Assembly: GCF_036226365.1 (NCBI RefSeq) | Contig: NZ_CP108462.1 | Span: forward strand, 5,471,501-5,535,500 | Source: Streptomyces sp. NBC_01262 | GTDB taxonomy: Bacteria > Actinomycetota > Actinomycetes > Streptomycetales > Streptomycetaceae | Reading direction: 5' to 3' | DNA: 64,000 nt | Shown: positions 2 to 46,341 of the stretch, one piece after another | Layout: each line of letters begins with the position of its first letter | Position numbering within the stretch: the stretch's first letter is position 1 | Position numbers and translations under genes: made by a program | Notes under the pieces: model-generated | The model's input: only the letters and a program-made list of their open reading frames with translations | What the model was told of the DNA's origin: nothing | The model's database searches: none

Positions 2-3000
2 TTCCTCGACGACTTCTTCGCGCTTCCCCACTCCCGGCGTGTGATCATCCCCGGCACGGCGCTGCTGCCGAAGCGTGGCAGCACTGATCTGAGCCCCCAC
101 GCTGCGCTGCTAGCGGCAGCAGCGCAGCAGGAGCTGTCGCGCGAGCAAGCCCGCGGCCTTGCCGAGGCCACGGGCCTCGGCGGGGCGATCCCGCACACCC
201 TCTCGCCCGGCGGAGTGCCGCGGGCGCTGCCAACGTCGGCGCTGGCGCAGCAGCTGTTCCCCAGCAGTCCCACGCCGGAGCAGCGAGAGGCCGCGCTGCA
301 CGGCGCACTACGCGTGCTGGGCACGGCCGAAGATCCGGACCTGCCGAAGCTGCGCGCGCATCTCTTCTTCCGCAACATCGGTGGTATCTGGGCCTGCGCG
401 GATCCGCAGTGTCCGGACATCCCAGTGCAGACGGACCCGGAGCGCCGGGTCGGCCGCCTGTTCGCAGAGCCTTCGTCCCGCTGCAGCTGCGGGGCACGGG
501 TGCTTGAGCTGCTGTACTGCCAGACCTGCGGCGACCTGATGCTGGGCGGTTACGCCAGCCCTAACGACATCAGGAACAGGCGGTTCACCGGCGCTCTGCA
601 CACAGACTTCCCCGAACTCGACCTGCTGCCGGACGAAGTGAGCGGCGTGCCGACTGCGGCGAACTACGTGGTCTACTGGCCGAGGCCGAAGGGGCTGGGG
701 TTGGACGATTCGGGCTGGTCGGCCTCGCTGTCCAACGGGGGCCAGAGTGTGGGATTCGAGTTTCGCCGTAGCGAGTACCACCCCGCCACCGGACGCCTTG
801 TCAACAAAGATGTGGGGTACACGGGTTGGTCCTTCCACATTTCGATGCCGGAGGACAAGGAGACCGGACAGGCGGTTCTCGACCCTGCGCGGCTCCGTCC
901 GTTCCCCACGCGCTGCCCAGCGTGCGGTGACGATTGGGAAATCAGGCGGGACCGGGACGGCCGGCACATCCCACTGGAATCACCGGCCAGGCTGCGCAGC
1001 GCTCCGGTCCGCCGTATGCGGACCGGTTTCGACAAGATCAACCAGGTACTCGCGACAGAGGTCCTTGGTCACCTGCCTGCTGGGCAGCGCAAGGCGATCG
1101 CCTTCTCCGACAGCCGCGACGATGCCTCCGAGCTGGCCAGCGGCCTCGCTCTGAGGCACTACCAGGACCTGCTGCGCCTGCTGAGTGCCAGGGCGGTCAA
1201 GGAGCAGGGCAACCCCTTCGCAGACTTGCAACTGGTCAAGGCCTTCTACGCGGGCGACGGGGTTGAAAAGGAAGCGGCACGTGCTGCCATGATCCGGCTG
1301 CGGGACCGGCACCCCTCTGACTTCGGCAAACTGAAGGCCATTCTGGCTGACGATCTCGACGCCGAGCCCGACCTGCTCCCGGACCTTGAGCGCCGGTTCT
1401 CCAGCCTGCCGTCGCTCGACTCGTTGTCCGGGGACCTGGAAGGTCTGCTGGTCCAGTACGGCACGAACCCCGGTGGGCCCGCCGCCTCTCTGCAGCAGAC
1501 CTCCGTCGGCCAGAGCTGGACAGCGCTGTACAACTGGAAGCGGGACCGAGAGTCCACCGCTGAGACGCAGGCCCATCAGGAGCTCCTGGAGAAGTTGCGC
1601 GAGCGGCTGCGGACCGAGTTCCTGTTCGGCCTCTTCTCAAGCGCGGGCCGGGACTTCGAGTCCCTGGGCCTCGGCTGGCTCTGCCTGCAGGATGACCGGG
1701 CCCCCATCGAGATGTCGACCAGCAGCCACGAGGCGGTTGCTCGCGCGAGCCTGCGGATTCTGGGCCAGATGCGCCGCTTCCACCGGGTGCGGTCCGGACT
1801 GCAGAACCCTCCGGCACCGCTGAAGCGGTTCTGGAAGCAGGTGGCCGAACGCGAGGGAACAGATCTTGAGACCGTAAAGGACCGAGTGCTCGGCGCCTGG
1901 AGGGACGCCGTCGTTGAGTACGTGGTCAATCCGGAGAAAGTGGCGCTGCGTGCTGGTGAGGGCAAAGTGTGGACCTGCCGCAGTTGCCGACGTCCGCACC
2001 TGCACCCCGGCGCTGGACTGTGCACCAAGTGCTGTACCGAACTACCCCCCCAGCCCGAGGAGTTCACCGGAGCGCTGGACGACTACTACGCGTGGAAAGC
2101 GGCGCATGGGACGGGCGACTTCCCCCTGCGCACGGCCGAGCTCACTGGGCAGACGGACCGGCTCGAGGCCCAACGCCGTCAGAGCGTCTTCCAGGACGTG
2201 TTCCTCGGCGAGGATGACATCCCCGAAGCCGACGGGCTCGAACTTCTGTCAGTGACAACGACCATGGAAGCCGGCGTGGACGTCGGCCCCCTCAACACCG
2301 TGCTCATGGCCAACATGCCCCCCACCCGCTTCAACTACCAGCAGCGCGTGGGCCGCGCCGGCCGACGTACCAGTCCGGTGGCCATCGCGCTCACGGTCTG
2401 CCGCGGGCGCAGCCACGACGAGCACTACTTTGCACGCCCCGAGGCCATCACCAACGATCCGACCCCGCCGCCTTACCTGGCTCTGGGCATGCCGTCAGTC
2501 TTCCGGCGTGTGCTTCTGGGCGAGGTGCTGCGCCAGGCCTTCGAGGCACTGTCACAGGCGGAGGGCCTGGCCGCGACGCCGCTGACCAACAACGTGCATG
2601 GCCAGTTCGGCCTCTCCGCAGACTGGCCAAAGCACCAGGATGTGGTCAGGCGCTGGACCTTGGACTACCCGGGCCGGATCCGGGCTGCTGCCGCTGCGTT
2701 GCAGGCCTTCACCCCCGAGCCGGTGGCTTCGATCGACCCCATCGCATGCATCGCAGGGCTTCTTGATGAGATCGACGAAGCAGCCGCCAACACGGTAGGC
2801 CATGCTGAGCTAAGCCAGCGGCTGGCAGAGGCCGGGCTGCTGCCGATGTTCGGCTTCCCGACGCGCGCGCGTCTGCTCTTCCGCAGCGTGCCCGAAAACC
2901 CCTTCCCGTGGCCGCCGTCTGACTCGATCAACCGCGACTTGGCCGTTGCGCTCAGCAAGTTCGCACCTGGCAGTGAGACGCCGCAGGACGGGCGGCTGAT

Positions 3001-4312
3001 CCGCTCGGTCGGCGTGGTCGCCCTCTCGCCTGGGGCCCGGAGGGTTCATGCCGCGGAGGAGCCGTTCGGGCCCGAGCAGTTGGTTGCCATGTGCCGGATC
3101 TGTGCGCACGTCGACCCGGAACCTGAGGCCACGGGCAAGGTCGGGAACTGCCCGGCGTGCGCGGCAGAGGGCAAGAACTACCGCATCGTCCCGTTCCGCG
3201 AGCCGGCCGGCTTCCGGGCTGCGTCTAATCCCCGCGATTACGACGGCACACGTGACTGGGGGAGCGGAGCGACCAGCACACGCACAGCTGCCGACCTGGA
3301 AGGCACCGCACCCCGCGTCGCGCGGGCTGCCGACGACTGGCTCGTCGTCCACAGCGGCAGCGGCGACCGGTACATGGTCAACAGCAACGGCGGCAAGCTC
3401 TTCCGGTTCCGCAAGGAGACCGGGCGATGGAAGGGCTACTGGCATTTGGAGAACCAGTCGGCGGACGCGGATCTGGAGACTGCTCTCGGCGCGACCCAGC
3501 ACACCGACATGCTCTTCGTCGGCGCGAAGGCCGCCTTCGACGAGCGTCGAGGCCTGCGCTTTGACATTTCCAGGTCCCAGCAGCCGGGCGGCTTCGCCGA
3601 CGCCTACCACGGACGTCGTGCTGCCTGGTACTCGATGGCGGCCCTGCTGCGACGTGCCGCCTCACCTTACCTCGACGTGCAGCCGGAGGAACTGCTCAGC
3701 GGTATCCACGGCTCCGACGCGCCGGTCGCCGCGCCCGTAATGGCGTACCTGGCCGACAGTCTCGACAATGGTGCTGGCTTCAGCACGCACCTTGGATCCG
3801 CCGAACACATCGACGGGTTCCTCGGTGCTGTGGACACCTACCTGCGCCAGCTCGGCTCCGGCAATCGGCACGCAGCGAACTGCAGCAGTTCTTGCTACTC
3901 CTGCCTGCGCGACTACTCCAACATGCGTATGCACCCGCTATTCGACTGGCGTCTCGCACGCGACCTCGTGGACGCGCTGCGCGGACGTGAGCTGGGGATC
4001 AACCTAGAAGCGCACGCGGATCTGCTGCGCGGCTGGGCGAAGGAGGACCCTGTGGTCCGCCCTGTCGAGACGGACAGCGGCCTGGTCTGTCTCTACACGT
4101 CCGATTTCAGTGGCGAGCCGGTCGCCGTCGCAGTCAAGCACCCCCTCGAGGCTGCTGCGGACGACTGCCAGGCAGAGCGGCTACGGCAGCTGCGCGAAGA
4201 TGTCCTGGCCGCCGGACTGGCCGAAAAGCTGGCGTTCGTCGACGCCTACTGCCTGGACCGGACGCCGGCGGCGGTCATCGACGAGATCCGCAGATTCGCG
4301 GAGGACTTCTGA
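2..4312 (+). CDS. Large DEAD/DEAH-type helicase with C-terminal DUF1998 zinc domain (5'-truncated by window edge)
   Basis: The frame is open from the first base, so the true start and probably the DEAD/Walker half lie upstream; 1436 residues are visible. The helicase C-terminal half is clear: FSDSRDDASEL near visible residue 367, TTTMEAGVDVG (motif V) near 750 and QQRVGRAGRR (motif VI) near 779. Cysteine pairs suggest several zinc ribbons (near 131, 161-177, 305, 658 and 1031-1053). CSSSCYSCLRDYS near 1295 is the cysteine cluster typical of DUF1998 helicases such as DruE of Druantia; in DISARM the DUF1998 domain is on the separate DrmB protein. The family couples ATP-driven translocation to DNA in phage defence. 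The stop codon overlaps the next ATG by one base, the first of three coupled junctions. Helicase assignment is sure; membership of a named system is not. Confidence 0.88.
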   Translation, partial: FLDDFFALPHSRRVIIPGTALLPKRGSTDLSPHAALLAAAAQQELSREQARGLAEATGLGGAIPHTLSPGGVPRALPTSALAQQLFPSSPTPEQREAALHGALRVLGTAEDPDLPKLRAHLFFRNIGGIWACADPQCPDIPVQTDPERRVGRLFAEPSSRCSCGARVLELLYCQTCGDLMLGGYASPNDIRNRRFTGALHTDFPELDLLPDEVSGVPTAANYVVYWPRPKGLGLDDSGWSASLSNGGQSVGFEFRRSEYHPATGRLVNKDVGYTGWSFHISMPEDKETGQAVLDPARLRPFPTRCPACGDDWEIRRDRDGRHIPLESPARLRSAPVRRMRTGFDKINQVLATEVLGHLPAGQRKAIAFSDSRDDASELASGLALRHYQDLLRLLSARAVKEQGNPFADLQLVKAFYAGDGVEKEAARAAMIRLRDRHPSDFGKLKAILADDLDAEPDLLPDLERRFSSLPSLDSLSGDLEGLLVQYGTNPGGPAASLQQTSVGQSWTALYNWKRDRESTAETQAHQELLEKLRERLRTEFLFGLFSSAGRDFESLGLGWLCLQDDRAPIEMSTSSHEAVARASLRILGQMRRFHRVRSGLQNPPAPLKRFWKQVAEREGTDLETVKDRVLGAWRDAVVEYVVNPEKVALRAGEGKVWTCRSCRRPHLHPGAGLCTKCCTELPPQPEEFTGALDDYYAWKAAHGTGDFPLRTAELTGQTDRLEAQRRQSVFQDVFLGEDDIPEADGLELLSVTTTMEAGVDVGPLNTVLMANMPPTRFNYQQRVGRAGRRTSPVAIALTVCRGRSHDEHYFARPEAITNDPTPPPYLALGMPSVFRRVLLGEVLRQAFEALSQAEGLAATPLTNNVHGQFGLSADWPKHQDVVRRWTLDYPGRIRAAAAALQAFTPEPVASIDPIACIAGLLDEIDEAAANTVGHAELSQRLAEAGLLPMFGFPTRARLLFRSVPENPFPWPPSDSINRDLAVALSKFAPGSETPQDGRLIRSVGVVALSPGARRVHAAEEPFGPEQLVAMCRICAHVDPEPEATGKVGNCPACAAEGKNYRIVPFREPAGFRAASNPRDYDGTRDWGSGATSTRTAADLEGTAPRVARAADDWLVVHSGSGDRYMVNSNGGKLFRFRKETGRWKGYWHLENQSADADLETALGATQHTDMLFVGAKAAFDERRGLRFDISRSQQPGGFADAYHGRRAAWYSMAALLRRAASPYLDVQPEELLSGIHGSDAPVAAPVMAYLADSLDNGAGFSTHLGSAEHIDGFLGAVDTYLRQLGSGNRHAANCSSSCYSCLRDYSNMRMHPLFDWRLARDLVDALRGRELGINLEAHADLLRGWAKEDPVVRPVETDSGLVCLYTSDFSGEPVAVAVKHPLEAAADDCQAERLRQLREDVLAAGLAEKLAFVDAYCLDRTPAAVIDEIRRFAEDF

Positions 4313-6069
4313 TGAGCACCGAGACGCGCTTTAGCGGCACTGGCCAGGACGCGGCAGACAACCTGGAGGCGCTGCGGCAGCGCGAACTCGCGCGCCGCGT
4401 TGCTCTGCAGGCCGCACGCGCGCGCGGGGAGCGCCCTGCCGTTGTCCGCTCCGCCCCCACCCAGACAGCGGAAGGGACCGTGAAGCCTCTCCTCAGCGCG
4501 GAGGAGCCGGTCGTGAACGCGAACGCACTTGCCGAGGCACCCCGGATACCCGAGGGCTTCGCCGATCAGGAGGCCTGGGTTCGAGCCTCGGCCTTCGCCG
4601 GACGTGCGCTGCCGGGCCTTGCCCCAGGGGCCCAGAGCGTAAGAGAGCTGTCCGCCCGCCTGCTGGCCTCAGCGGCGGTTGATGCCGCCGCCCAGATGGA
4701 GCCGGTCGACGGGGTTGCTCTTCTAGCCGACGCTAGCGACCACGGCCTGCCAGTCCTGAACCCTACAGCCGTGGCGCGCGCCCGGGCCTTGCTCGAACGC
4801 GCTCCCCTTCCGTTGGCAGGGGAGCCCCACACCGCCTGGCAGGTCTACCAGGACGAACAACGCGTGGTGGAGTACAAGATCCCCGCCGACCGCCAGAAGG
4901 CACTCCTGTCCGTGCTGCCGCTTCCGCAGCTGGACGACTTGATTGACGAAGAGTGGATCACTGCGGCTCCTGAGCCGGACGGCTCGCCGAGGACCGCCTA
5001 CCTCCGCGCCCGCCTTGCCCCTGAGGCGCTCAATGACGAAGAGTTGAGCCTGCTCGGCTGGCGTCTGGAGCGGGAACGCCGAGAGGCGGGACCTGGTACC
5101 GAACTCGGACCTGACTGGTCGGACACGTGGCGCCTGCTGTGGAGACTGCAGCAGGGGGACACGCGGGCCGTTGACGACGACTGGCCGACGCTGCCCCGCA
5201 CCGCGCGGGAGCTGCTGAACGAGCTTCGAGCCGTGCGCCAGACTGGCCGTGTTCCCCATGGCCTTGCCGCTGACCAGGCCTTGTGGCCCTTGCTTGAGCG
5301 CCTGGCCCCCGAAGCCCATAGCGACTTTAAGAAGTTCCAAGGCTGGCTCGCGATCCGACGGCTGCTCCGCGCGCTTCGCCACGCGCACCGGGCGGAGATC
5401 CATGGGGACCACGAGCTCGCTGACGCGCAGCGCCGGGCGGCCTGGGACCTCGCGGGGCGCCTGGCATACGCCTCTCAGCTTGTCCGCTGGGAGGCACAGA
5501 ACATCCGCGCCTACTTGCTCGCTCCCACGGATCCGGCGGAAGCGGGCACCTACCTGGCCCTCGACGCGGAGTCTCATCAGGCGCGGCAGAACGAGCTCGG
5601 CGACGCAACCGTTGCCAGGCTTGTACGCAACCGATCCTTCCTGGCGAGGCGTCGGGCGTCTGACCGTGACCGGCCGGTAAACCCCTACCTGGTCCTTGGG
5701 GTTGAGGACGGCTCACCAGAGTGGAAGCAGTCGTGGCGCGCTGTTCGCCGCGAACTCGATGAAGCGGGCCGTGTCCGCGTCAACCAGGCCAAAGACGCCA
5801 TCGAGGCCGCCCAGCGGGAAGGCAGGGACACCGACCGCCTTGTCGTTCCCCTGGCACCGGATTGTTGGGCTGCCCCCACCTCGGTCAGTCACCGACTCGA
5901 CCTGCCACCCGAGCCGATGGAGCGTGCAACCGAGCCCCCATCCGAGTCTGACCGGGAGTGGGCACGGACGGCAGCGGCACGCGAAATAATCACCATGGCG
6001 ACTAGCCGCCCACCCCAGGCTGCCAAGCACCTCGCAGCCTCCCGTGATCCAGAGAGCAGTGCACCGTGA
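4312..6069 (+). CDS. Uncharacterised 585-aa protein with a J-domain-like segment, second gene of the helicase-Hsp70 operon
   Basis: I recognise no full-length family. The protein is alanine-, arginine- and glutamate-rich and mostly helical, with no signal peptide or membrane segment. Residues 457-500 begin NPYLVLGVEDGSPEWK and continue through a basic helix to VNQAKDAIEAA, which looks like helix I, helix II and helix III of a DnaJ J-domain. The HPD tripeptide expected between helices II and III is absent. The Hsp70-family gene two genes downstream makes a J-like partner plausible, but this is inference from a short match. The start ATG overlaps the helicase stop (TGATG), and its own stop overlaps the next GTG, so stoichiometric translation is likely. 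It could equally be a structural subunit of the helicase complex. Confidence 0.7.
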   Translation: MSTETRFSGTGQDAADNLEALRQRELARRVALQAARARGERPAVVRSAPTQTAEGTVKPLLSAEEPVVNANALAEAPRIPEGFADQEAWVRASAFAGRALPGLAPGAQSVRELSARLLASAAVDAAAQMEPVDGVALLADASDHGLPVLNPTAVARARALLERAPLPLAGEPHTAWQVYQDEQRVVEYKIPADRQKALLSVLPLPQLDDLIDEEWITAAPEPDGSPRTAYLRARLAPEALNDEELSLLGWRLERERREAGPGTELGPDWSDTWRLLWRLQQGDTRAVDDDWPTLPRTARELLNELRAVRQTGRVPHGLAADQALWPLLERLAPEAHSDFKKFQGWLAIRRLLRALRHAHRAEIHGDHELADAQRRAAWDLAGRLAYASQLVRWEAQNIRAYLLAPTDPAEAGTYLALDAESHQARQNELGDATVARLVRNRSFLARRRASDRDRPVNPYLVLGVEDGSPEWKQSWRAVRRELDEAGRVRVNQAKDAIEAAQREGRDTDRLVVPLAPDCWAAPTSVSHRLDLPPEPMERATEPPSESDREWARTAAAREIITMATSRPPQAAKHLAASRDPESSAP

Positions 6070-7295
6070 CCAACCACTCCGACCTCCCCGAAGGCGGCGG
6101 TGAGCAGAGAGGGCACGCACCCTCTGGCCGCAACGGCAAGGGCGGCCCCGTACCGAAGCGGCACAAGTCCGATCCCCAGATGCGGTCCAGCGGGGCCCAG
6201 CGGTCCCACTGGACCGCGGACAGCGGGATACCTCAGATCGCTCCGGATACCCTGGACGCTGCGGCGCTCCTGGGATCCGTGACAGACACACTGCGCCCTG
6301 TGCTGGAGGAACGTCTCGTTGAGATGGCGGATAGTCTGGCAACTGCAATCGCGGACCCCCAAGGCTCCGATGCTGTCGACGCGCTGCGAGCGGAGCTGCT
6401 GCGCCGAGTCCTCCCGCAGTTCACTGAAGCGGTGCGCGGAGCCGTCATCGAAGGCATCCGTACCCGGCAGATGCACCTAGCGCAGCTGGCGGTCATCGAC
6501 CGGACCGCACACCAAGCCGCCAAACTGACATCCCTGCGCGCCCGGATCGACAACGAGATCACCCGGGCCGGCCTAGTCCGCGTGACCGAACCAGAAGACC
6601 TGTCGCTCTTCGACCTCGTCGACCCAGACAGCCTGCGCCAAGGCGTCGCCGAACCGCCCATCTACTCTGTCCTCGCCCCTGCCTACACCGACCGCGAGTC
6701 GGGCAAACTGGTGGAACGCGGCTGGCTGAGTGTCTCCTACGAGCGTCCCGCCCCTGCGAAGCCCGCCTTGACCCCGGGCCAGAGACGACGCCAGCACGGG
6801 AGCCGACCCGAGAAGCGCAACCAGGCGGCCGAGAAGCGGGCTGCGGATTCGCCTTCCGCACAGCTTCCCAAGGCCAGACGCCGCAAGGGAACGGCACCAG
6901 ATCGGGGGCCCGAGTCAGCGCCGCCCCCGCTAGCTGTCACAGCACACCTGCAGGACGGTTCCGGATCGAACACGGCTGCCACCAAGCGCTCTCGCCGGAC
7001 CGACCCTCCGGTGCGGGATGGCAAGGCTCGGCATGGCGCTGAGCCAGTGCGGGGAACACAGTCGGCGCGCGAGTCTGATTCCGCGCGGAGCCGAGAGCCC
7101 GTGCAACGATCTGAGGCTCCCCTCGCTGCAGAAGCCGACGGCCGGAGGCCAGCTGCTGCATCGGGGACGACTGCACCGGACCCGCAGCCCACACAAGTAG
7201 ACCAGTCACGGCAACCTGCCGCCGTGTCAAAGATCGACCTCCGTAAATCGCTGCGCGCAGCAGTCAGCAGGAAACGACAGGGGGGCTCCCGATGA
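6066..7295 (+). CDS. Uncharacterised 409-aa protein with helical core, possible GrpE-like segment and disordered basic tail
   Basis: The GTG start overlaps the upstream TGA by four bases. Residues 1-50 are polar and probably disordered. Residues about 60-160 form long amphipathic helices, and about 161-228 form a compact region starting RIDNEITRAGLVRV and ending GWLSVSYER. That layout (helical stalk, then a small beta-type domain following a GLVRV/FDLVDP pattern) is reminiscent of GrpE nucleotide exchange factors, which would fit the Hsp70 gene immediately downstream. The match is weak and visual only. Residues 235-409 are rich in R, K, P, S and A and look disordered, possibly nucleic-acid binding. 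It lies inside a coupled operon with no gaps, so it should be a subunit of the same system. No catalytic motif is visible. Confidence 0.65.
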   Translation: MTNHSDLPEGGGEQRGHAPSGRNGKGGPVPKRHKSDPQMRSSGAQRSHWTADSGIPQIAPDTLDAAALLGSVTDTLRPVLEERLVEMADSLATAIADPQGSDAVDALRAELLRRVLPQFTEAVRGAVIEGIRTRQMHLAQLAVIDRTAHQAAKLTSLRARIDNEITRAGLVRVTEPEDLSLFDLVDPDSLRQGVAEPPIYSVLAPAYTDRESGKLVERGWLSVSYERPAPAKPALTPGQRRRQHGSRPEKRNQAAEKRAADSPSAQLPKARRRKGTAPDRGPESAPPPLAVTAHLQDGSGSNTAATKRSRRTDPPVRDGKARHGAEPVRGTQSARESDSARSREPVQRSEAPLAAEADGRRPAAASGTTAPDPQPTQVDQSRQPAAVSKIDLRKSLRAAVSRKRQGGSR

Positions 7296-9058
7296 GCTTC
7301 GGCATCGACTTCGGCACGAGCAATTCGGTCGTCGCCCGATGGAGCGGGCATGCCATCGAAGTCGTCCCAATCGACGGGGACAACCTTCCCGCACTGTGGC
7401 GGCAACCTGAGTTCGAGCAGCTCTTCCCCTCCGCCGTATCGGTGCGCGACCTCCAGCGGACGCTGTGCTTTGGGTGGGCTGCCAAGACGGCCACGAGCGA
7501 ACCGCTCGACGCAGTCAAACGCATGCTGGGCACCAGATCCGGTGCGGACAGACCGGGTGAGTCCGACGAACTGGAGGCGCTACCCCGGCTTGAGGAGCAC
7601 CACGTGTGGATCGGCGGAGAAGCCTTTCACAGCACAGTCGCGGCTGCTTCCCTGTTCAGCCGGATGCGCGAGGGCGCCGCCGCTCAACTGCTCGACTTGT
7701 CCGAGGCAGTCGTCACGGTGCCCGCGAACGCGACCGGCGGCGCCCGCTATCGGACCCGTGCTGCCGCCGCACTGAGCGGGATCAAGGTCAGGGCTTTGCT
7801 CAACGAGCCCACGGCCGCAGCGATCTCATATGCGCACGATGTACCCATACCTGGCCGGTTCCTCGTGTTCGACTGGGGCGGGGGGACCATCGACGTCACT
7901 GTCCTTGAGTACGCTGACGGACTCTTCGAAGAGCAGACCTCACGCGGTATCACGGCGCTAGGCGGTCTTGAGTTCGACGGTGAACTCGCCAAGCTGATCC
8001 TTCGCAAGATGGGCAAGGCACCGGAAGCCTTGACCAAGTCGGAGCGACGGCGCTGGCGCCGGTATGTCGAGCTCACCAAGATTGCCCTGTCACACGTGCC
8101 TCAGGACGGCCAGATCCTGTTCGAGCCACCCATCGACCAGTTGTCCGGGAGGACGGCTCAACCAGTTCCGGTCACGGTCGAGGAGTACTCGAAGGTGGTG
8201 TCCCCGCTCATCGACCACGCCATGCAACCGGTCGAACAGGCGTTGAGGGACCTGAACATCAGCCCCGAGGACATCGACTCCGTGTTGCTGATCGGCGGCA
8301 CTTCGCAGATCCCGCAGGTTCGCCAGGCGCTCGGTGCCGTCATGGGCCACGACCGCATCGTTGATCCCGGGCTGTGCCGACCCATGACGGCCGTGGCCCG
8401 CGGCGCAGCCATCTACGCGGCGTCGCTGGACGGCACACGTGGGGACAGCGGCGATTTCTCCCTGGTCACCAGCTACGACCTGGGAACCGCGGTGAGTGCG
8501 GGGCGGCAGCGCGGCTTCCGGCCGATTATCCGCCGCAATGCGACGCTTCCAGCCGAGGGCACCTCCACCTTCTACCCCGACAAGCCGGGGGCCTCGGCGG
8601 TACGCGTCGCCGTCATTGAAGGCGAGTACGGGCACGCTGCGGACAGCGACCGGGCTTTCCCGCTCGCCACCATCGAGGTGCCATTGCCTTCGGCTGAACA
8701 CGACTCCAAGCGCAATCGGATTGAGGTCCGGTTCCGCTATAACGAGAGCGGCATCCTGCGTTTCACCGCCACCCACGCCGACACCGGGCAATTGCTTGCC
8801 GAACGGGAGATCGACTCCTTCGGGCCTGACGGCACGCCGCTGCAAGATGGCCTCAGCGAACAGCTCACGCGCCTTCTGGCGCACACAGTGCGTCCCTTCA
8901 CCGAACCCGCGCAGGGCGGTCTCGCGCAGCCGGCGGCTGGCGGGGCCCCGGACGCTGCTAAGCCGTCCGTCGACCCGTTCTCGGCCCGGATCGTTCAGAC
9001 CGATCCGGCGGTCACGGTGAACGGGGTCGCGCAGCACCTCATGACGGGTGGGGCGTAG
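7292..9058 (+). CDS. Hsp70-family (DnaK-like) ATPase, divergent, last gene of helicase operon
   Basis: The 588-residue protein carries the three actin-fold ATPase signatures: GIDFGTSNSVV at residues 4-14 (phosphate 1), VFDWGGGTIDV near 191-201 (phosphate 2) and LIGGTSQIPQV near 331-341 (adenosine). After the nucleotide-binding domain there is a short substrate-binding-like beta region to about residue 530. The full helical lid and the C-terminal EEVD-like tail are missing, and the protein ends in a low-complexity P/A/G linker. It is therefore not the housekeeping DnaK. The ATG overlaps the previous TGA (ATGA). Hsp70s use ATP-driven clamping with J-protein and GrpE partners, and the two preceding genes are candidates for those roles. 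In a defence island it may sense or remodel phage proteins or load the helicase, which is inference. Confidence 0.88.
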   Translation: MSFGIDFGTSNSVVARWSGHAIEVVPIDGDNLPALWRQPEFEQLFPSAVSVRDLQRTLCFGWAAKTATSEPLDAVKRMLGTRSGADRPGESDELEALPRLEEHHVWIGGEAFHSTVAAASLFSRMREGAAAQLLDLSEAVVTVPANATGGARYRTRAAAALSGIKVRALLNEPTAAAISYAHDVPIPGRFLVFDWGGGTIDVTVLEYADGLFEEQTSRGITALGGLEFDGELAKLILRKMGKAPEALTKSERRRWRRYVELTKIALSHVPQDGQILFEPPIDQLSGRTAQPVPVTVEEYSKVVSPLIDHAMQPVEQALRDLNISPEDIDSVLLIGGTSQIPQVRQALGAVMGHDRIVDPGLCRPMTAVARGAAIYAASLDGTRGDSGDFSLVTSYDLGTAVSAGRQRGFRPIIRRNATLPAEGTSTFYPDKPGASAVRVAVIEGEYGHAADSDRAFPLATIEVPLPSAEHDSKRNRIEVRFRYNESGILRFTATHADTGQLLAEREIDSFGPDGTPLQDGLSEQLTRLLAHTVRPFTEPAQGGLAQPAAGGAPDAAKPSVDPFSARIVQTDPAVTVNGVAQHLMTGGA

Positions 9059-9083: not shown

Positions 9084-11255
9084 TCAGCCCGTTTCCTCCG
9101 CGCCGCCGAGGCCAGTAATGAACGGGCTGGGAGCGCCGCTCCAGCTCACAGACAGTCCCTCGCGTGCGCGAGTGCAGGCCACGAACAGCAGGCAGCGCTC
9201 GGCGAGCAGATCGGCCGCATGCTGCGCAGGGTCAGCGTCAGCGGGCGTTACTGCGGGCAGGAAAGGCAAAGCGGCCTGTGAGGCACCCAGGACCGCCACG
9301 CAGCGAAACTCCAGGCCCTTCATCGCATACATCGTGGCGATCCGCACGCCGGGAACGTCGGCGCCAGGCGTGTCCTTGAGGAGCACCGACTCGATTCCCG
9401 ACGCTCGGAGACGGGCCTGTGCCTTGGCGCCAAGCTGGTGGAAGCGTGTGCACACCGCAATCTCTGCCGCGGGGACGTCCGCTGCGAGCCACTGCCGCAC
9501 GCGCTCGACGAGCGCTGTCAGCTCGGCCTCTTCAGACCGGTAGCCCCGGATGCTTGGACTAGCTCCGTGCAGCAGAGAGACGTAACCAGCCAAGCCGCTG
9601 TCCGCGCAGTCCCCCGACAGATCCTCGACAGTCTGGCCAGACAGCACCTGTCCCGACCAGCGCAGGATTTCCTCCGTGTTCCGGTAGTTGACACGCAGCC
9701 GGAAACTGCGCCCTACCACGGCGATGCCGAGCGCGGCGAATGACACCCGGGAATCGTAGATCCGCTGGTGAGGGTCGCCCGTGAGGAAGATGTCGTCCGG
9801 CCCTTCAGGCACGGCGGCCCGCAGAAGGCGCCACTGTGCCGGGTGAAGGTCCTGAGCCTCATCCACAACAATGTGCTGGTAACCGCCCGCCAAGTGGCTC
9901 TGCTCCCGCAGGACGCGGGCGGCCTCGGCGCACAAGCGGAGGTGGGTGCTGCGCCCCTCCGCTTCGAGCTGGCGGGTGAACTCCGACACCGCCTGCCACA
10001 GGAGCGGGCGCTTACCTGGGGGCAACGTGGTGCCTCTCCCGCGTCGGTTGGCGGCGATGTACTCCTCTTCGGTGCGCACGTCCTGAGCGAGGACGACGTG
10101 GCGGTACTCCTGCATGAGAAACTCTCCGGTCCACGGAAAGTCCAGTTTCTTGGCGATCGCACGCCAGCGCTTGCGTTCCTCTGCATCGTCGACTGCCACC
10201 GGCACTCGCCCGAGGTGCTCTCGAAGCACTTTGAAAGTGAGGGAATTGACAGTGCCAACTTCTACCTGGGCGAGCACCGCCGGATCGTCCAGCAGCAGGC
10301 CGAGATTCTCTTGCAGGATGTCGGCCAGGGCGTTGGTGTAGGTGGTGAGCAAGATGGATGGAGACTTGCCTGCCGCCACCTGCCCGAGAAGGTGCTTGAC
10401 TCGGTGCAGGGCGACGACAGTCTTGCCCGTGCCGGGGCCACCGGAGACCTGGACAGGACCGCTGTAGGAGTCGCGGTAGGCGATCCGGCGCTGGCTCGGG
10501 TGAAGGAAGACCCGCCAAGCTGCGAACGGCTGCGAGAGCATGTGCTCCAGCTCGTCAGGCCGGGAGACCACGACGATGCGGCTCTTCGTGTTGGCAATGG
10601 CCGTGGAGACGTCGCGCGGGTCCAGCGGGCCGGGGTCGACGGGCCGGCGCTGAGAGACGATGACAGTCCAGACTTCCTCCGGCGTGGCGCCCTCGGCCAG
10701 GTACTGCAAGACCTCGCACTGGTCCTCGGGGAAGACCGGGATGAACGCCTCCAACTGCGCCTTGTCTGTGAGGGAGCGCACTGCCGGCAGCAAGGCCTTA
10801 TCGATGCCCAAGTTGCGCAGGACGGTGTCGGAATGCTGGTCGAACAGCCGACGCGGTGCGTTCTCCGCCACCTGCTCCAGCAGTGGGGTGATCTGCTCGA
10901 TCGCGTGGACATTCCGCACCTCCAGGCCCCGGGTGGCCGAGTTCACGCTAAACACGCGCTTCGCCGCCCACTCGTAGGCCTTGTCGTGCTGTACGACATT
11001 CACTAGCAGGAAGGTGCTTCCCCCGTCGTCGGGCGCAAGCACGACGCCGCGCCAGTAGTCGGTGATGCGGATCGTCCGCATCCGGGGGTCCCTGGCTTTC
11101 TTCACCGCCTCAAGGTGCAAACCCTTGTCCGCATGCAGCTCAGCGGCGCTGAGCTTCTGAAACTTCGCCATCGCCTTCCGCACACCGGTGCGCACGTGCT
11201 TCTCCAACTGCTCGTACTCCTCCCAGAAGGAGGCAGAGAAGGCGAGTTGCGGCAC
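9084..11255 (-). CDS. RelE/ParE-like domain fused to UvrD/Rep-type superfamily 1 helicase
   Basis: I chose the GTG at 11255 because GGAGGA lies six bases upstream; an upstream TTG in the same frame is possible. The product is 723 aa. Residues 1 to about 115 contain RMRTIRITDYWRGVVL and HDKAYEWA, a pattern seen in RelE/ParE-fold proteins. SF1A helicase motifs follow: Walker A GGPGTGKTVVALHR, VDEAQDLHPAQW (motif II), TGDPHQRIYDSR (motif III), VNYRNTEEIL (IV), TMYAMKGLEF (V) and FVACTRAREGL (VI). The family unwinds DNA 3'-5'. The gene ends 25 bp from the Hsp70 gene, tail to tail, so it is transcribed separately but sits in the same island. Whether the RelE-like domain is an active RNase, a nuclease-like module or only a binding domain cannot be judged here. 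Confidence 0.9.
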   Translation of the reverse strand: MPQLAFSASFWEEYEQLEKHVRTGVRKAMAKFQKLSAAELHADKGLHLEAVKKARDPRMRTIRITDYWRGVVLAPDDGGSTFLLVNVVQHDKAYEWAAKRVFSVNSATRGLEVRNVHAIEQITPLLEQVAENAPRRLFDQHSDTVLRNLGIDKALLPAVRSLTDKAQLEAFIPVFPEDQCEVLQYLAEGATPEEVWTVIVSQRRPVDPGPLDPRDVSTAIANTKSRIVVVSRPDELEHMLSQPFAAWRVFLHPSQRRIAYRDSYSGPVQVSGGPGTGKTVVALHRVKHLLGQVAAGKSPSILLTTYTNALADILQENLGLLLDDPAVLAQVEVGTVNSLTFKVLREHLGRVPVAVDDAEERKRWRAIAKKLDFPWTGEFLMQEYRHVVLAQDVRTEEEYIAANRRGRGTTLPPGKRPLLWQAVSEFTRQLEAEGRSTHLRLCAEAARVLREQSHLAGGYQHIVVDEAQDLHPAQWRLLRAAVPEGPDDIFLTGDPHQRIYDSRVSFAALGIAVVGRSFRLRVNYRNTEEILRWSGQVLSGQTVEDLSGDCADSGLAGYVSLLHGASPSIRGYRSEEAELTALVERVRQWLAADVPAAEIAVCTRFHQLGAKAQARLRASGIESVLLKDTPGADVPGVRIATMYAMKGLEFRCVAVLGASQAALPFLPAVTPADADPAQHAADLLAERCLLFVACTRAREGLSVSWSGAPSPFITGLGGAEETG

Positions 11256-11377
11256 TGGCTGTCCTCCCACAGGACGAAGTCTGAGAAGCAACCACCTTAT
11301 CGACTATCAAATGTGTCGGCGCTGACGCGTGCGCGGCGATCGTCAGTTTCTGGCCGCCGCCCAGGTCGTAGGAGGCG

Positions 11378-14800: not shown

Positions 14801-14971
14801 CGGCGACGCCCGGAGACTGATGCGCCCTGGAGATTTCTGGCCATGGCAACGGATTCGCATCAAGAGTTGCGAATGTGGCTGTGTCGGGTGGACTGGGCTG
14901 ATAACTACTGCGCCAGGGGGCTTTCGAGGTGTATCGCTTCCTGTACGTTCCGTGATCAGGAGGTCATGCGT

Positions 14972-17900
14972 ATGTCCAACCGGCAAGCGACCGGCGCCGT
15001 GCACTCTGGCAGCAGCGACCCCGGTCTCGACCGGTTGAAGACCGTCCTGAGCAGCTGGCGTAGCTCTCTTCTTGACTTGGGTGGACGCAACCGGCTGCTG
15101 AACTTCCGCCACACCAGGACCGCGACGCTGGAATTCACGTCGCCGGATGCTTCGGCCGTGCTGTCGGGTCTGACCCGAGGATGGCCCTTCGCTCCTGTTG
15201 CGGAGAAGCGCGAGTCGGATACCTCGGTGGTGGATGAGCGTGATTCCGTCACCTTGCGCAAGCCGGGCGCTCCGGGGCTGGTGACGCAGAAGACCACGCA
15301 GGCGGCGTTGGACACGGCCCTCTACCAACTGCGTCAGAAGTCGGGCCAGATGTACAACGACTACGGCCTGTGGGTGCTGTGGCTGGGCGTTGGCATGCTC
15401 GACTGGTGCGAGGCGGGGGCTCACGAAAGCAGCTCTGCCCCGCTGCTGCTTGTTCCGGTGGAGCTGCGCCGGGACAGTCATGGACAGCCCCGTCTGCACC
15501 TCGCTGAGGATCAGGATCGGATCCACAACCCGGCGCTCGCGGTGAAGCTGGACCGGCTGGGCGTCGACTGGAGTTCGGTCGCAGGCACCGACGTGACGGA
15601 TCTCCGCGCGGTGCTTGCCGCTGCCCGGGACATCGCGCTCACGCAGGACGGCTGGTCGGTGGGGGAGCGAGTGGTGCTCGGCCTCTTCGCCTCCTACAAG
15701 GAGGCCATGTACCAGGACCTCCAGCAGAACGAGGAGCAGATCCTGGGCCACCCGTTGGTGCGGGCTGTCGGCCTGGGCCCCGAGTCCGGGCTGCCCGACG
15801 ACCTTATCCGGTTCGACCTTCCGGAACTGGACAGCATCGACGAGATCCAGTTGCCCGAGCGGACCCCGCTCGTCCTTGATGCCGACTCCTCGCAGCGGCA
15901 GTGCATCGCGTCCGCCCTCGACGGCCGTTCGTTCGTGATGAGCGGTCCGCCCGGCACGGGCAAGAGTCAGACCATCACCAATATGATCGCCGCTCTGATG
16001 CACGCGGGCCGGTCGGTGCTCTTCGTCAGCGAGAAGGCCGCGGCGCTCGACGTGGTGCGCAACCGGCTGCGCGGCGTGGGCCTCGGTGACTTCGTGATGG
16101 CCCTGCACAGCGGCGACACCAGCAAGAAGGCCGTGGCAACGGAGCTCGCGCGGGTGCTGACGAGCGAGGTGCGGATCACCGGAGCGGCCCAGCACGAACT
16201 GGACCGGGCGCGGCGACTGCGCGAAGAACTGTCTGGCTACGCCGCGGCGATGAACCAGACACGGGAACCGCTCCAACGCACCCTCCACGACGTCCTGGGC
16301 CGACTGGTCCTCCTGGACCAGGCCGGCACCCCACAGCTGACGTTGAGTGCCAGGAGCACCAAGACCGTCCGCAAGCTCAGCGCCGGGGCGCTCCAGGCAC
16401 TCACGGAAGCCGCCGGGACCATCAGCCGTGCCTGGCGCCCAGCCGCAGAAGGCGAGATGTTCGTGTGGCGCGGTTTGGTGGGCGACTCCGCGCACACGGT
16501 TCTGTCCGAGGCCGCCGACGCCCTGGCAGACCTGTCGGCCGCCACCGACCGCCGTCCCTTCGCGGCCACAATCCCCGAACCGCGCACGGTGCGTGACGTC
16601 AACCAGATCGTACGAACCGTGAGCGCGGAGCTGCCCGACCGTGACGCACCGGCGTCGAGCGCCGTCCTCCCGGAAGACCCCTCCGGGATCCTCGCCCAGC
16701 TCGCAGATCTCTTCGGCATGCCCAAACCACAGACGTCCGAGGCGGCCTTCGACCTCTTCGAGCTGACCGAACTGACCGAAGCCACGGAGCGCCCGCTGCG
16801 TCAGTGGCTCGATGACGCGACCCTGCACCGGACGCACCAGGCTGCGGTCGAGCTGCGCAACGCGCTCGCAGCCGAGGACTCAGCCCGAGCGGAGGCGGAG
16901 GACGTCTTCAGCGAGCGGGTCCTGACGGAAGCTGAACTGCCCGCCCTGGTACGGCGCTTTGCTGAGCAACACCGGGGGGTGATGGCGCGCTTCTCATCCC
17001 AGTTCAAGGCCGACCGCGCGGCTGTCCTCGCCCTCACCCGGGACGGCATCTGGAAGAAGGCCCTGCCCGGACGGCTGGAACACGCTCTGGCCTGGCAGAT
17101 CGCCGCCGCTGAGGTTGTCCGACTTGCCAGCCTCCATGGTGAGCAACTCGGACGCTACACGCCCCATACGCAGGAGGATCTGCCGGCCCTCGACCGGGCA
17201 CTGGCCACCGCTGATCGTGTGGCGGAGCTGACCCGTGACGCCATCGGCCGGGAATTGCTGGTCGCACGCCTGGCCGACGGTGCCGACCCCGACTCGCTCC
17301 CGGGGCTGCTGTCCACCGGCGCACAAGCTGCGCTGGGCGACTGGTGCCACGTTGCGACACAACGAGCCGCCCGCTGGGGGCAGTCCGCGACCGCTCTGCT
17401 CGGTCTCTTCGACTCGGCCCGGCAGGCCCGGCTGTCCCCGACGCTGAGCGGCACCCTCGACCAGGCCCAGCAGGTTGTCGGCGCTTTCCAGGCCGACCCC
17501 CGGGGCCCGGAGGAGTGGCAGGCGTATCAGGACGGGCTCGCCGTGCTGGCCCGCCACGCCGCGGACGACCTCGTCCAGCGGGCAGCAGAACGGGGCATTC
17601 TGCCGCAGCAACTGCCAGCCGTAGTCGAGCAGGCGACGCTCAGAACCTGGGCTGACGACATCCTCGCCACTGACACCAGGCTGCGCACCACTCGTTCCGC
17701 CGACCTGGACGCACGGGTGACCGACTTCCAGGAAGCCGATCGCCGTCTGGTGGCCGCCGCAAGCGGAGCCGTGATCGAGGCATGCAACAAGCGCAGGCCG
17801 CGCCGGTTCAGCGGAGGTGCCGCAGCTGTGATCACCCGGCAAGCAGAGCTCAAGAGGCGGCACATGCCGGTACGTGAACTGCTTGGCAGGACTCGGGAAG

Positions 17901-19936
17901 TCGTGCAGTTGATCAAGCCGTGCTTCATGATGAGCCCGCTGACGGTCAGCCAGTTTCTCCCTGCCGACTACTACTTCGACGTCGTCATCTTCGACGAGGC
18001 GTCGCAGGTACGGCCCGCCGACGCGGTCAACTGCGTCTACCGGGGAAGCTCACTCGTCGTCGCTGGTGACGAGAAGCAGCTGCCACCCACCTCATTCTTC
18101 GACTCCTCGGTCGAGGACGACTCCGACCAGTACGACGAAGAAGTCCCCGACACCTTCGAATCGCTGCTGCACGCCTGCAAGGCCGGCGCGATGCGGGAAC
18201 TCTCCCTGCGCTGGCACTACCGCAGCCGCCACGAAGACCTGATCACCTTCAGCAACCGGTCCTTCTACGGCAACTCCATGGTGACCTTTCCCGGCGCCCT
18301 GGACCGCGGCAACGACGTCGGCGTGGCCTTTATCAAGGCGGACGGCGTCTACGACCGCGGTGGGCGCCGAGACAACCGCATCGAGGCGGAACTGGTCGCC
18401 GAGCGCGTCATCCACCACTTCGACACCCGCCCCGGCCGCACCCTCGGCGTCGTCGCCCTCTCCCAAGCCCAGGCATCGGCCATCGACCAAGCAGTCCAGC
18501 AGGCCCGACTGCGCCGCCCGGACCTGAACCACTGCTTCACCGAGGACCGACTCGACGGCTTCTTCGTCAAGAACCTCGAATCAGTACAGGGAGATGAGCG
18601 CGACGTCATGATCATGTCGATCGGCTACGGCCCCGACGAGCACGCTAAGTTCGGAACGAACTTCGGCCCCATCAACAAGGACGGCGGCTGGCGCCGACTC
18701 AACGTCGCCGTCACGCGTGCCCGCTTCCGTATGGAGGTCGTCGCCTCGTTCCGGGGCAGCGGACTCCCCGACAGCCCGAACGAGAGCGTGCAGCACCTCA
18801 AGCGGTACCTTGAGTACGCGGAGAACGGCCCCGCCGTCCTCGCCCAGGACGTGATACAGAGCGACGCCGAACCTGACAGCCCCTTCGAGGACTCCGTACT
18901 CCAGGTGCTGAGCGGCTGGGGCTATCGCGTCCAGCCGCAGGTCGGCGTGGCCGGCTACCGCATCGACCTCGGCGTGCGCCATCCGGAATTCTCCGGCTCC
19001 TACGCCCTCGGCATCGAGTGCGACGGCGCGATGTACCACTCCTCCAAGGCCGCCCGCGACCGTGACCGCCTGCGCGAACAGGTACTCGCCGGCCTCGGCT
19101 GGCGGCTCTACCGCATCTGGGGCACCGACTGGTACCGCGGCCGCGCCGCCGCCGAGCTGCGACTGCGGGAAGCGGTTGAGCTGGCGGTCGCCCGGGGCAC
19201 GCTCTCAGCCTCGGCGGAAGCAGCATCCGCTGCGCCGCCGCCCACCACCGGTCAGGCGGAGGACGTATCGGCCGCGCGGGGAGGCGACGCGGTGGGCGGT
19301 ACGACGAGCCGGGGCACGGTGCCCCCGCCCGCCCCCGCTGTCTCGGTGGACCACGAGCGAGTTCCTGTCGACACCGAGCCGGACCGTCCGTGGAGCGCCC
19401 TGTACGAGACGTGCGACATGTCCGTCAGTTCGCCGTACGAACTGCACACCCCGGAGGCCCGTCCCGCGCTGTGCAAGCTCCTGACCAGGATCGTCGGGAT
19501 CGAGGGCCCCATCCACGAAGAACTGCTGGTCCAACGCGCCCGTGAGGCCTGGGGCCTGGCGCGGGCGGGCAACCGCATCCGCGACAACGTCCGCGAGGTG
19601 GTGCGCGGCCTCGCAAGCGCGGGCACGGTCACCGTCCGCGGCGACTTCCTCGACGTGGCTGCCCGGGACGAACTGAAAGCCCGCACCCCGGACGGCGGCG
19701 ACGTACCGCGCAAGGCCGCGCACATCGCCCCGGCGGAGCGGCAGGTGGCGTTGCACGAGCTCACGGTGGAGTGCCCTGGGATGTCGCGGGACGAGCTGAT
19801 CCGCCACGCTTGCGAGTTTTTCGGTTGGCGGCGGATGGGCCGGGACATCCGCGCATTCTTGGAGTCCGACATCAACGAGCTGTGTGAGCAGGGGAGACTC
19901 AGCGAGACGGACGGCCGGATCACCGCGCTGAGGTGA
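14972..19936 (+). CDS. DUF4011-helicase-nuclease-DUF3320 protein, Hhe-type phage defence candidate
   Basis: AGGAGG at 14958-14963 sits eight bases before the ATG at 14972, so I prefer it to ATGs at 14966 and 14843; the product is 1654 aa. The N-terminal region (about 20-300) matches DUF4011 in arrangement (SSLLDLGGRNRLLNFR). SF1B helicase motifs follow: SGPPGTGKSQTITNM near 325, FDEASQVRPAD, VAGDEKQLPPTSF, WHYRSRHEDL, VQGDERDVMIMS and NVAVTRAR. A PD-(D/E)XK nuclease of the MTES_1575/Vsr type follows (FEDSVLQVL, YRIDLGV, GIECDGAMYHSS). DUF3320 is at the C-terminus. As I recall, this architecture was reported as the single-gene Hhe defence system. It stands alone, with its own ribosome binding site and a hairpin downstream. 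Confidence 0.9.
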   Translation: MSNRQATGAVHSGSSDPGLDRLKTVLSSWRSSLLDLGGRNRLLNFRHTRTATLEFTSPDASAVLSGLTRGWPFAPVAEKRESDTSVVDERDSVTLRKPGAPGLVTQKTTQAALDTALYQLRQKSGQMYNDYGLWVLWLGVGMLDWCEAGAHESSSAPLLLVPVELRRDSHGQPRLHLAEDQDRIHNPALAVKLDRLGVDWSSVAGTDVTDLRAVLAAARDIALTQDGWSVGERVVLGLFASYKEAMYQDLQQNEEQILGHPLVRAVGLGPESGLPDDLIRFDLPELDSIDEIQLPERTPLVLDADSSQRQCIASALDGRSFVMSGPPGTGKSQTITNMIAALMHAGRSVLFVSEKAAALDVVRNRLRGVGLGDFVMALHSGDTSKKAVATELARVLTSEVRITGAAQHELDRARRLREELSGYAAAMNQTREPLQRTLHDVLGRLVLLDQAGTPQLTLSARSTKTVRKLSAGALQALTEAAGTISRAWRPAAEGEMFVWRGLVGDSAHTVLSEAADALADLSAATDRRPFAATIPEPRTVRDVNQIVRTVSAELPDRDAPASSAVLPEDPSGILAQLADLFGMPKPQTSEAAFDLFELTELTEATERPLRQWLDDATLHRTHQAAVELRNALAAEDSARAEAEDVFSERVLTEAELPALVRRFAEQHRGVMARFSSQFKADRAAVLALTRDGIWKKALPGRLEHALAWQIAAAEVVRLASLHGEQLGRYTPHTQEDLPALDRALATADRVAELTRDAIGRELLVARLADGADPDSLPGLLSTGAQAALGDWCHVATQRAARWGQSATALLGLFDSARQARLSPTLSGTLDQAQQVVGAFQADPRGPEEWQAYQDGLAVLARHAADDLVQRAAERGILPQQLPAVVEQATLRTWADDILATDTRLRTTRSADLDARVTDFQEADRRLVAAASGAVIEACNKRRPRRFSGGAAAVITRQAELKRRHMPVRELLGRTREVVQLIKPCFMMSPLTVSQFLPADYYFDVVIFDEASQVRPADAVNCVYRGSSLVVAGDEKQLPPTSFFDSSVEDDSDQYDEEVPDTFESLLHACKAGAMRELSLRWHYRSRHEDLITFSNRSFYGNSMVTFPGALDRGNDVGVAFIKADGVYDRGGRRDNRIEAELVAERVIHHFDTRPGRTLGVVALSQAQASAIDQAVQQARLRRPDLNHCFTEDRLDGFFVKNLESVQGDERDVMIMSIGYGPDEHAKFGTNFGPINKDGGWRRLNVAVTRARFRMEVVASFRGSGLPDSPNESVQHLKRYLEYAENGPAVLAQDVIQSDAEPDSPFEDSVLQVLSGWGYRVQPQVGVAGYRIDLGVRHPEFSGSYALGIECDGAMYHSSKAARDRDRLREQVLAGLGWRLYRIWGTDWYRGRAAAELRLREAVELAVARGTLSASAEAASAAPPPTTGQAEDVSAARGGDAVGGTTSRGTVPPPAPAVSVDHERVPVDTEPDRPWSALYETCDMSVSSPYELHTPEARPALCKLLTRIVGIEGPIHEELLVQRAREAWGLARAGNRIRDNVREVVRGLASAGTVTVRGDFLDVAARDELKARTPDGGDVPRKAAHIAPAERQVALHELTVECPGMSRDELIRHACEFFGWRRMGRDIRAFLESDINELCEQGRLSETDGRITALR

Positions 19937-45011: not shown

Positions 45012-46341
45012 GGTCTTGCTCCCTCCCTTGCCGGACAGCCGGGTGCGCCGTTCCGGGAGGGCCAGGGTGAATCAGGAATTCTGACGCACGTGCTTCGCAG
45101 CAACACTCCACGGTTCCCGTGGGCGGCCCCCAGCACCACGCTGACCTGCGAGCTCACCGGCATCACAGAGTCTTCGGTTTCGGCCGGAACGAACCCCACC
45201 ACGATCCCGAACCGGGATCAGCCCACGTCAGGGCAGACAGAAGCACCTCCGGCGCACGCCCGGAGATTTACCACGCCCCCGGCGCGCACCAAAGGTGCGC
45301 TGGATCGCTGACCTGGTCTTTTGCTTGCCGGTAGGGGATGGATCACGCTGTGCAAAGGGTCCCGGTGGACAACCGGTGGACAGACGTGCGTGACACCCCA
45401 TCAGAGGCTTTGGCTGCCGCTGACTGGCGGGTGAAATCCACCGGTCTCCGATGGGACGATCGGCGTCGTCGGGACTGTCCGGTCCTGACAGATCTCACGT
45501 CCGGTTTGGATCTTGGCGACGATTACGGCCATGAGCACCCGCAACCGCCGACGGGGCGGGGCAGGGGCATCGAAGTGGCGGCCGATGGGCGGCTTTGTCT
45601 GAGGTTGCGGTCGGTCGCCCGGGCCGCCTATTGGGCACGGCGAAGCCGCCGACCAGGGCGCGTTGAGCAGGCCAGGACACACGTGGATCGCGGCTTGCAG
45701 GACTCGTCCCGCCGACCAATTCCCAGACCGCCGCGGACACACCGAAGAAGCTCTGGTCATGCCTCGGCGACGAGATCCCACGCACCGCTGTAGAGCCTCG
45801 GACACAGATAACCCCCGAAGCGCCCCGCTCGGCCCGTCGCGGGCGACCCTCGGTGTCTGTCCCGGTTTCGTCAATGGTCGCTGCTTCGAGACATTCTTCT
45901 TCAACGGCAACTGCTTCGCCGGCGTTTCGGACCGGAGCGGAGATGCGTGGTACCTGGACATCATCCGCCAAGACGGGGGAGATGGTGACACTCGGATCCC
46001 CGACCCAGCGGGAGGACGGCGACCCCGCCCACTGCCCTACCGGACCATCCATGATTCGCCACTTCGCCCGGAGCGCCTCCCATGCAGTCGCCGGCACCGC
46101 GGCCCCGCCCTCCGGGCCCGGGGCCGGGCCCACCGCTGTCGTCCGGTGAGGTGCAGGCAGGCGTCCGAGGCAGGAGCCCCAAAACATGGCCGGTCGTGCT
46201 CGGGGCGCTGATCTGTGGATTTGCGCCACGGCGAGGGTGGAGGGACGGTCTCGGCTGGTACTGCTTCCGTCTGCGGCAGTCCTGATGGAGGTGTCTTTGC
46301 CTGGCCGGTTCCGTGAGCTGGTCCTGTCAGGTGGCGGGGGC
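45012..46341. other. Gene-poor 1.3 kb, may include the IS110 left end with its bridge RNA
   Basis: No frame has a recognisable family or good ribosome binding site. In IS110-group elements the non-coding end upstream of the transposase (here 45012 to about 45200) encodes the bridge RNA that pairs with donor and target. I could not fold it, so I do not claim it as an RNA gene. The phrase GGTGGACAACCGGTGGACAG near 45365 resembles 49481-49500, hinting at shared relic sequence. Confidence 0.45.

Follow-up and report, generated by a model that had tools for sequence, protein, structure and literature searches.

The first four genes of the window (the whole 64,000-nucleotide stretch of Streptomyces sp. 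NBC_01262 DNA that was analyzed) belong to a six-gene operon in which a Druantia type IV core is followed by a triad of genes encoding two putative co-chaperone-like proteins, here called X and Y, and an Hsp70 homolog. The gene set, the operon structure and a single origin of the combination are established at the level of sequence. The locus is tentatively read, with a confidence just short of even, as a Druantia type IV variant whose dedicated Hsp70 chaperone triad would act as a private, ATP-driven switch.

Operon structure and the Druantia type IV core

Features of the operon are collected in Table 1. The four genes described in the sequence-only reading as joined by overlaps of one to four bases were recovered as open reading frames in the same direction, with overlaps of 1, 4 and 4 bases (TGATG, GTGA and ATGA). 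The helicase frame is open at the window edge and the operon is cut by the window: druE starts at genome position 5470362, 1,139 bases before the window, and two further overlapping genes, druF and druL, lie upstream of it. Across all six genes the junctions are, in order, ATGA, GTGA, TGATG, GTGA and ATGA, and the six genes look like one translation-coupled operon. The overlaps are not attributed to chance, since the same ones (DruE/X -1 or -4, X/Y -4, Y/Hsp70 -4) are present in every one of the 16 named Streptomyces relatives. The source genome is a single contig of 9.74 Mb, and a tRNA-Thr gene is located ~0.9 kb before the first operon gene.

Table 1. Features of the six-gene operon; positions are those of the window except where genome positions are given.
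Feature	Position	Strand or location	Basis
druF	genome 5467343-5469388, outside window	directly upstream	PADLOC DruF4, 340 bits
druL, ATG start	genome 5469385 to 5470365, outside window	directly upstream	PADLOC DruL4, 296 bits
druE (type IV) 3' part, SF2 helicase of 1,816 aa	2..4312	+	PADLOC DruE4, 2,167 bits, residues 15-1813
X, 585 aa, all-helical	4312..6069	+	homologs all linked to Y and Hsp70
X J-like domain (probable), ~residues 457-505, NPYLVLGV...WKQSWRAVRREL	5680..5826	+	hhalign to actinobacterial DnaJ J-domains
Y, 409 aa, probably GrpE-like, long and probably disordered C-terminal tail	6066..7295	+	homolog position; model
Y GrpE-like core (probable), ~residues 101-225, long helix then beta wing	6366..6740	+	hhalign to GrpE
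Lidless Hsp70 ATPase, 588 aa	7292..9058	+	PF00012, 207.9 bits; alignment to the genome's own DnaK
Hsp70 last 18 residues, DPAVTVNGVAQHLMTGGA, possible NYN first-strand remnant	9002..9055	+	alignment vs LVVDGSNLAW

The matches of DruF, DruL and DruE span nearly the full PADLOC profiles, and by these matches the operon core is Druantia type IV (DruF-DruL-DruE), a known system defined in PMC8565338. The locus shares with that system the gene order and the full-length type IV model matches, and differs from it in having Hsp70, X and Y, all three of which are lacking from Druantia type IV as defined. DruL sits between DruF and DruE in place of DruM and DruG, neither of which was matched by PADLOC in any of the six operon proteins. 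A DUF1998 helicase of the Druantia class had been proposed from the sequence alone; the class was upheld, the helicase being placed in it by the full-length DruE4 match, whereas DUF1998 itself was not called by Pfam, which returned DEAD and Helicase_C. The operon had also been taken for an unnamed system, Druantia type IV having been missed because druF and druL lie outside the window; a named system accounts for the helicase core only, and the triad is unnamed in PADLOC and in the main texts searched.

DISARM was rejected as an identity for the operon, where a weak shared-helicase match to DrmA alone was found with no other DISARM gene, and the DISARM combination (DrmA + DrmB, DrmC + methyltransferase) does not occur. 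No nuclease domain was called in the Druantia type IV core genes at the locus. The proposal of a nuclease partner 3' of druE in every Druantia type IV core was dropped, as several canonical loci contradict it; the gene directly 3' of druE encodes a PIN-domain protein in locus L100 and an ATPase in L105, and several canonical loci have no co-directional gene directly after druE.

The Hsp70 and its putative partners

By sequence the third triad protein is certainly an Hsp70 homolog, its PF00012 score (Table 1) standing against a cut-off of 20.6 bits. The nucleotide-binding domain and the beta substrate domain are retained up to approximately residue 500, after which ~88 residues remain with no convincing alignment to the DnaK lid, in agreement with the earlier description of an Hsp70 without its lid. 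On this alignment the protein is a lidless Hsp70-family ATPase and not a standard DnaK. Residues equivalent to D8, T11, K70, E171, D194, T199 and D201 are conserved. The position of DnaK Arg167, which in work on DnaK-DnaJ contacts the Asp of the HPD motif, is occupied by Ala in the locus Hsp70 and by one of Ala, Thr, Met and Ser in each of the 42 triad Hsp70s, the ATPase residues being intact. A canonical DnaK-GrpE-DnaJ set is also present in the genome, with the dnaK operon ~1 Mb from the locus; the triad has in common with this set the three-part composition and the Hsp70 catalytic residues, but is without the lid, HPD and Arg167. The C-terminal end of the Hsp70 is a possible remnant, at a suggestive level only, of the first strand of an NYN domain, which reads LVVDGSNLAW in NYN-bearing Hsp70s.

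X and Y gave no significant Pfam, PADLOC or NCBIfam match, and their profiles had no solved relative by sequence in the PDB. The J-like segment of X was aligned by hhalign with DnaJ J-domains at 51% (26 rows, best column shuffle 17%) and, after distant homologs were added, at 87% (30 rows, best shuffle 8.6%), in both cases with no Pfam match; it is mainly helices I and II that carry the assignment, and HPD is absent from X in 30/30 homologs. The C-terminal part of X is probably J-like and HPD-less, and X is not filed as a J-domain protein. The AlphaFold model of X is all helical and poor (mean pLDDT 57.6), with residues ~315-500 weakly TPR/14-3-3-like. In VIA, X matched helical arrangements of the TPR and 14-3-3-like kind; the Z values, at most 8.0, are within the range of common helical packing, and no J-domain protein was among the listed VIA rows.

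Homologs of Y always lie between X and Hsp70. The Y core was aligned by hhalign with actinobacterial GrpE at 71-75%, below the Pfam threshold (best shuffles 1.5% and 1.0%, in controls of 200 and 150 column shuffles; hhalign E-values are those of single comparisons), and the cross-comparisons X-GrpE and Y-DnaJ gave <1%. In the AlphaFold model of Y (mean pLDDT 54; ~63-93 in the core, mostly <40 in the tail) the core is built of a pair of long helices with a beta wing. Neither the X model nor the Y model had a significant Foldseek match; three GrpE chains were among the top 20 rows for Y, none significant, and Y residues 141-227 gave a VIA Z of 4.0-4.1 against GrpE. By profile and model, Y is probably GrpE-like. 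The co-chaperone character suggested earlier for the two middle proteins is kept as a resemblance, of X to J-domains (51-87%) and of Y to GrpE, and does not extend to a Pfam match or an HPD motif. With HPD lost from X and Arg167 from the Hsp70s while the catalytic residues are kept, X and Hsp70 look like a functional but closed pair, one that housekeeping DnaJ and the other housekeeping co-chaperones do not serve.

Occurrence of the triad with and without Druantia

Of the 294 genomes analyzed from the order, 31 have an X homolog, and in all 31 it is followed by Y and Hsp70. Counting one incomplete locus, the overlapping six-gene set is found in 20 loci from two actinobacterial families, which clearly contradicts the possibility allowed for in the sequence-only reading that the genes rarely co-occur. 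A contig scan for X was run with an 11-row alignment, a divergent 26-row alignment being too variable, and yielded 16 named Streptomyces loci with the triad complete in 16/16 and all six genes in order in 15/16; a species may be both here and among the order-wide genomes, and the counts are not additive. Locus L063 has no druF or druL match and an incomplete druE.

Full-length DruE4 loci in the sampled order are evenly divided (triad present in 11/22, absent in 11/22), and in a quick tree the triad-bearing DruE proteins are separated from the rest by a branch with an SH-aLRT value of 100. The six-gene loci cluster as one clade whether the tree is built on DruE or on Hsp70, and pairwise distances correlate at 0.996 for DruE-X and 0.993 for DruE-Hsp70, shared species history also contributing to these values. 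The trees fit a single gain of the triad within Druantia type IV, kept since. Locus L184, from another family of the class, has all six genes, and for every one of them the nearest counterpart in the loci compared is that of L054/L072, as would fit a set transferred or inherited together. No relatives of X were found in plasmid, phage or viral-contig collections. In a phylum-wide draw of 396 genomes X was found in the source's family only; restriction of the gene set to that family was rejected, since a class-wide search with Y found the set in further families.

The triad also exists apart from Druantia, which was beyond the view of the sequence-only reading. There are 20 such loci whose Hsp70 has an NYN RNase domain of the Zc3h12a type at its C-terminal end; in two of them the domain is degenerate. 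These Hsp70s carry ~130 or more extra C-terminal residues matching Pfam RNase_Zc3h12a (NYN), with scores of 34.2 bits in L037, 28.0 in L042, 24.4 in L049, 22.6 in L041 and 18.2 in L038 (cut-off 23). A purpose-built NYN profile detected the domain in 18/18 whole non-Druantia Hsp70s of the order, most of which had gone into building it, and was independently positive in L185 and L186, from another family. Around the non-Druantia triads lie other defense genes of different kinds: tandem type I-like methyltransferases with a DndB-like gene; DpdE together with a DruE-like helicase, a DrmMI-like methyltransferase and a pair of Leo-like GTPases; or UvrD/GajB-like helicases. Loci L188 and L189 have Y and Hsp70 with no NYN and no recognized Druantia genes, and L188 carries a free-standing J-like protein.

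The NYN catalytic-type residues are degenerate in L038 and L040, and the domain is absent from 20/20 Druantia-linked Hsp70s. The Hsp70 tree groups these 20 in one clade (100/100), the sister of which is the degenerate pair L038/L040, followed by the intact L037; the order in the tree is intact NYN, decayed NYN, and NYN absent with Druantia present. The mutual exclusion of NYN and Druantia amounts to one evolutionary event and is suggestive, not statistical proof; it could be coincidence.

Described systems and candidate function of the triad

The idea of a private actinobacterial Hsp70-GrpE-J set is shared with the GAP1-N2 GTPase conflict systems (Kaur et al. 2020, PMC7159879). At the center of those systems stand a GAP1-N2 GTPase and a fusion of FNIII with DnaJ; the operon has neither, no Pfam match to a GTPase or FNIII being found in any of its six proteins; NYN and Druantia are not mentioned in the main text of that paper. 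CnuD of type III CoCoNuTs (PMC11090510) is, as at the locus, an Hsp70-like protein in a defense operon, and some CoCoNuTs neighbor Druantia III (PMC11090510). CnuD is part of McrB-like GTPase systems, and its Walker A-like motifs are degenerate; the locus, in contrast, has intact ATPase residues, no McrB-like GTPase, and J-like and GrpE-like partners. CoCoNuT was rejected as an identity, no Pfam or PADLOC match to the McrB-like GTPase CnuB with CnuC being found in the operon. ARMADA, BRIGADE and TALON, from a survey of YprA helicases (PMC12458937), have the same helicase family as the locus, and Hsp70, DnaK, GrpE, DnaJ, chaperone and NYN have zero mentions in the main text of that survey. Druantia together with Hsp70 or DnaK was found, among open-access main texts, only in the CoCoNuT paper and a preprint, and the titles, abstracts and examined passages of open-access papers naming both "NYN domain" and "Hsp70" gave no sign of a bacterial Hsp70-NYN fusion. 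No published description of Druantia with this triad was found in the open-access main texts searched.

In the proposed mechanism, X would be a helical adaptor that carries a J-like domain lacking HPD, Y a GrpE-like nucleotide exchange factor, and the Hsp70 a lidless, apparently ATPase-competent protein. X would bind either a protein that is misfolded or made by the phage, or a component of the Druantia complex, and the Hsp70 cycle, reset by Y, would keep a partner effector inactive or unassembled, to be released once infection changes the bound partner of X. In free-standing triads the proposed effector is the Hsp70-fused NYN RNase; where Druantia is present and the RNase is gone, the DruE helicase complex would be the target of the switch. 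The triad may have been ancestrally coupled to the RNase and later captured by Druantia. It is quite possible, if somewhat less than probable, that X-Y-Hsp70 is an undescribed portable immune module gating interchangeable effectors, either the Hsp70-fused NYN RNase or the Druantia IV complex. Precedents are the chaperone thresholding proposed in PMC7159879 and the requirement of bNACHT25 for DnaJ to detect phage coat protein (PMC12169576).

The fixed linkage and co-inheritance of the triad with DruE would also suit an assembly chaperone with no sensing role, folding or assembling the giant DruE (1,816 aa) or the DruE-DruF-DruL complex, as would the intact ATPase residues and the beta substrate domain of the Hsp70. 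Equally large DruE4 proteins, however, manage without the triad in 11 related loci, the same triad is found with an RNase and no DruE4, and a canonical DnaK-GrpE-DnaJ set is already in the genome; an assembly role is considered unlikely, while keeping some weight. That 20 loci, of several kinds, have the triad but not Druantia would be expected of a separate defense or stress module that is merely a passenger in the operon of Druantia, an account made improbable by the overlapping six-gene operon kept across two families as one clade with distance correlations of 0.99, and by the absence of the triad's own RNase domain exactly in the Druantia clade. The triad could instead be a decoy or guard that mimics host DnaK-DnaJ-GrpE and is tripped by phages hijacking or blocking chaperones, with release of the effector. 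The resemblance takes in the whole three-part machine, and bNACHT25 offers a parallel (PMC12169576). A close mimic, however, should have retained the J-Hsp70 contact (HPD, Arg167), and this contact has diverged in X and in Hsp70 alike; the probability assigned to a guard is small. On present evidence the gate model is preferred to the assembly, guard or decoy, and passenger models only tentatively.

The ATP-driven switch remains the preferred reading. Type III Druantia combines a likely sensor, DruH, with a helicase-nuclease effector (PMC13192584), so type IV may need a sensor too; no report of infection sensing by Druantia type IV was found in open-access main texts. The fixed chaperone triad is a concrete candidate sensor or gate for Druantia type IV. 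Confirmation of the Hsp70-NYN form would mean that a complete Hsp70 cycle serves as an immune switch, and the gradation from intact through decaying to absent RNase would record the capture of one immune module by another.

Flanks of the Druantia IV genes

The tRNA-Thr gene upstream of druF may possibly mark the edge of an island; none of 19 related loci yielded a tRNA gene. In two canonical Druantia IV loci, other genes directly follow druE (see table).

Features beside the triad and in compared Druantia IV loci
Feature	Location	Strand	Remarks
tRNA-Thr gene	L004 (stretch of the NBC_01262 genome) 10888-10964; genome 5466388-5466464		~0.9 kb 5' of druF
UvrD/Rep-family helicase gene	window 9084-11291	-	PF00580, 89 bits
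1,697-aa protein	window 14843-19936	+	PADLOC candidate PDC-S37, 1,224 bits; Hhe, 553 bits
PIN_8-domain protein gene	L100 6066-7658		immediately 3' of druE
PtuA/PDC-M01-like ATPase gene	L105 6225-7772		immediately 3' of druE

Neighbours and variants of the triad

Homologues of the UvrD/Rep-family helicase lie immediately 5' of X in L037 (48% identity) and close to the triad in L186 (49% identity), both loci without Druantia. The helicase carries an additional N-terminal stretch that may be RelE/ParE-like.

In L049-L052 the NYN-bearing triad is followed by two Leo-like GTPase genes. A DrmMI-like methyltransferase gene stands immediately 5' of X in L049 and L052, and DpdE and a DruE-like helicase are additionally present in L049. 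In L040, where the NYN of the triad is degenerate, genes for a phage-type integrase and for a CHAT-NACHT-TPR protein lie close by. A minimal form (L188:9720-12276) comprises a short Y, an Hsp70 without NYN and a separate 137-aa J-like protein, which matches the J-like end of X.

Setting within the window

GC skew reaches its maximum among 2-kb bins, +0.23, at window 46001-48000. The 1,697-aa protein matches PDC-S37 and Hhe, and the initial 20 kb of the window therefore look like a defence island.
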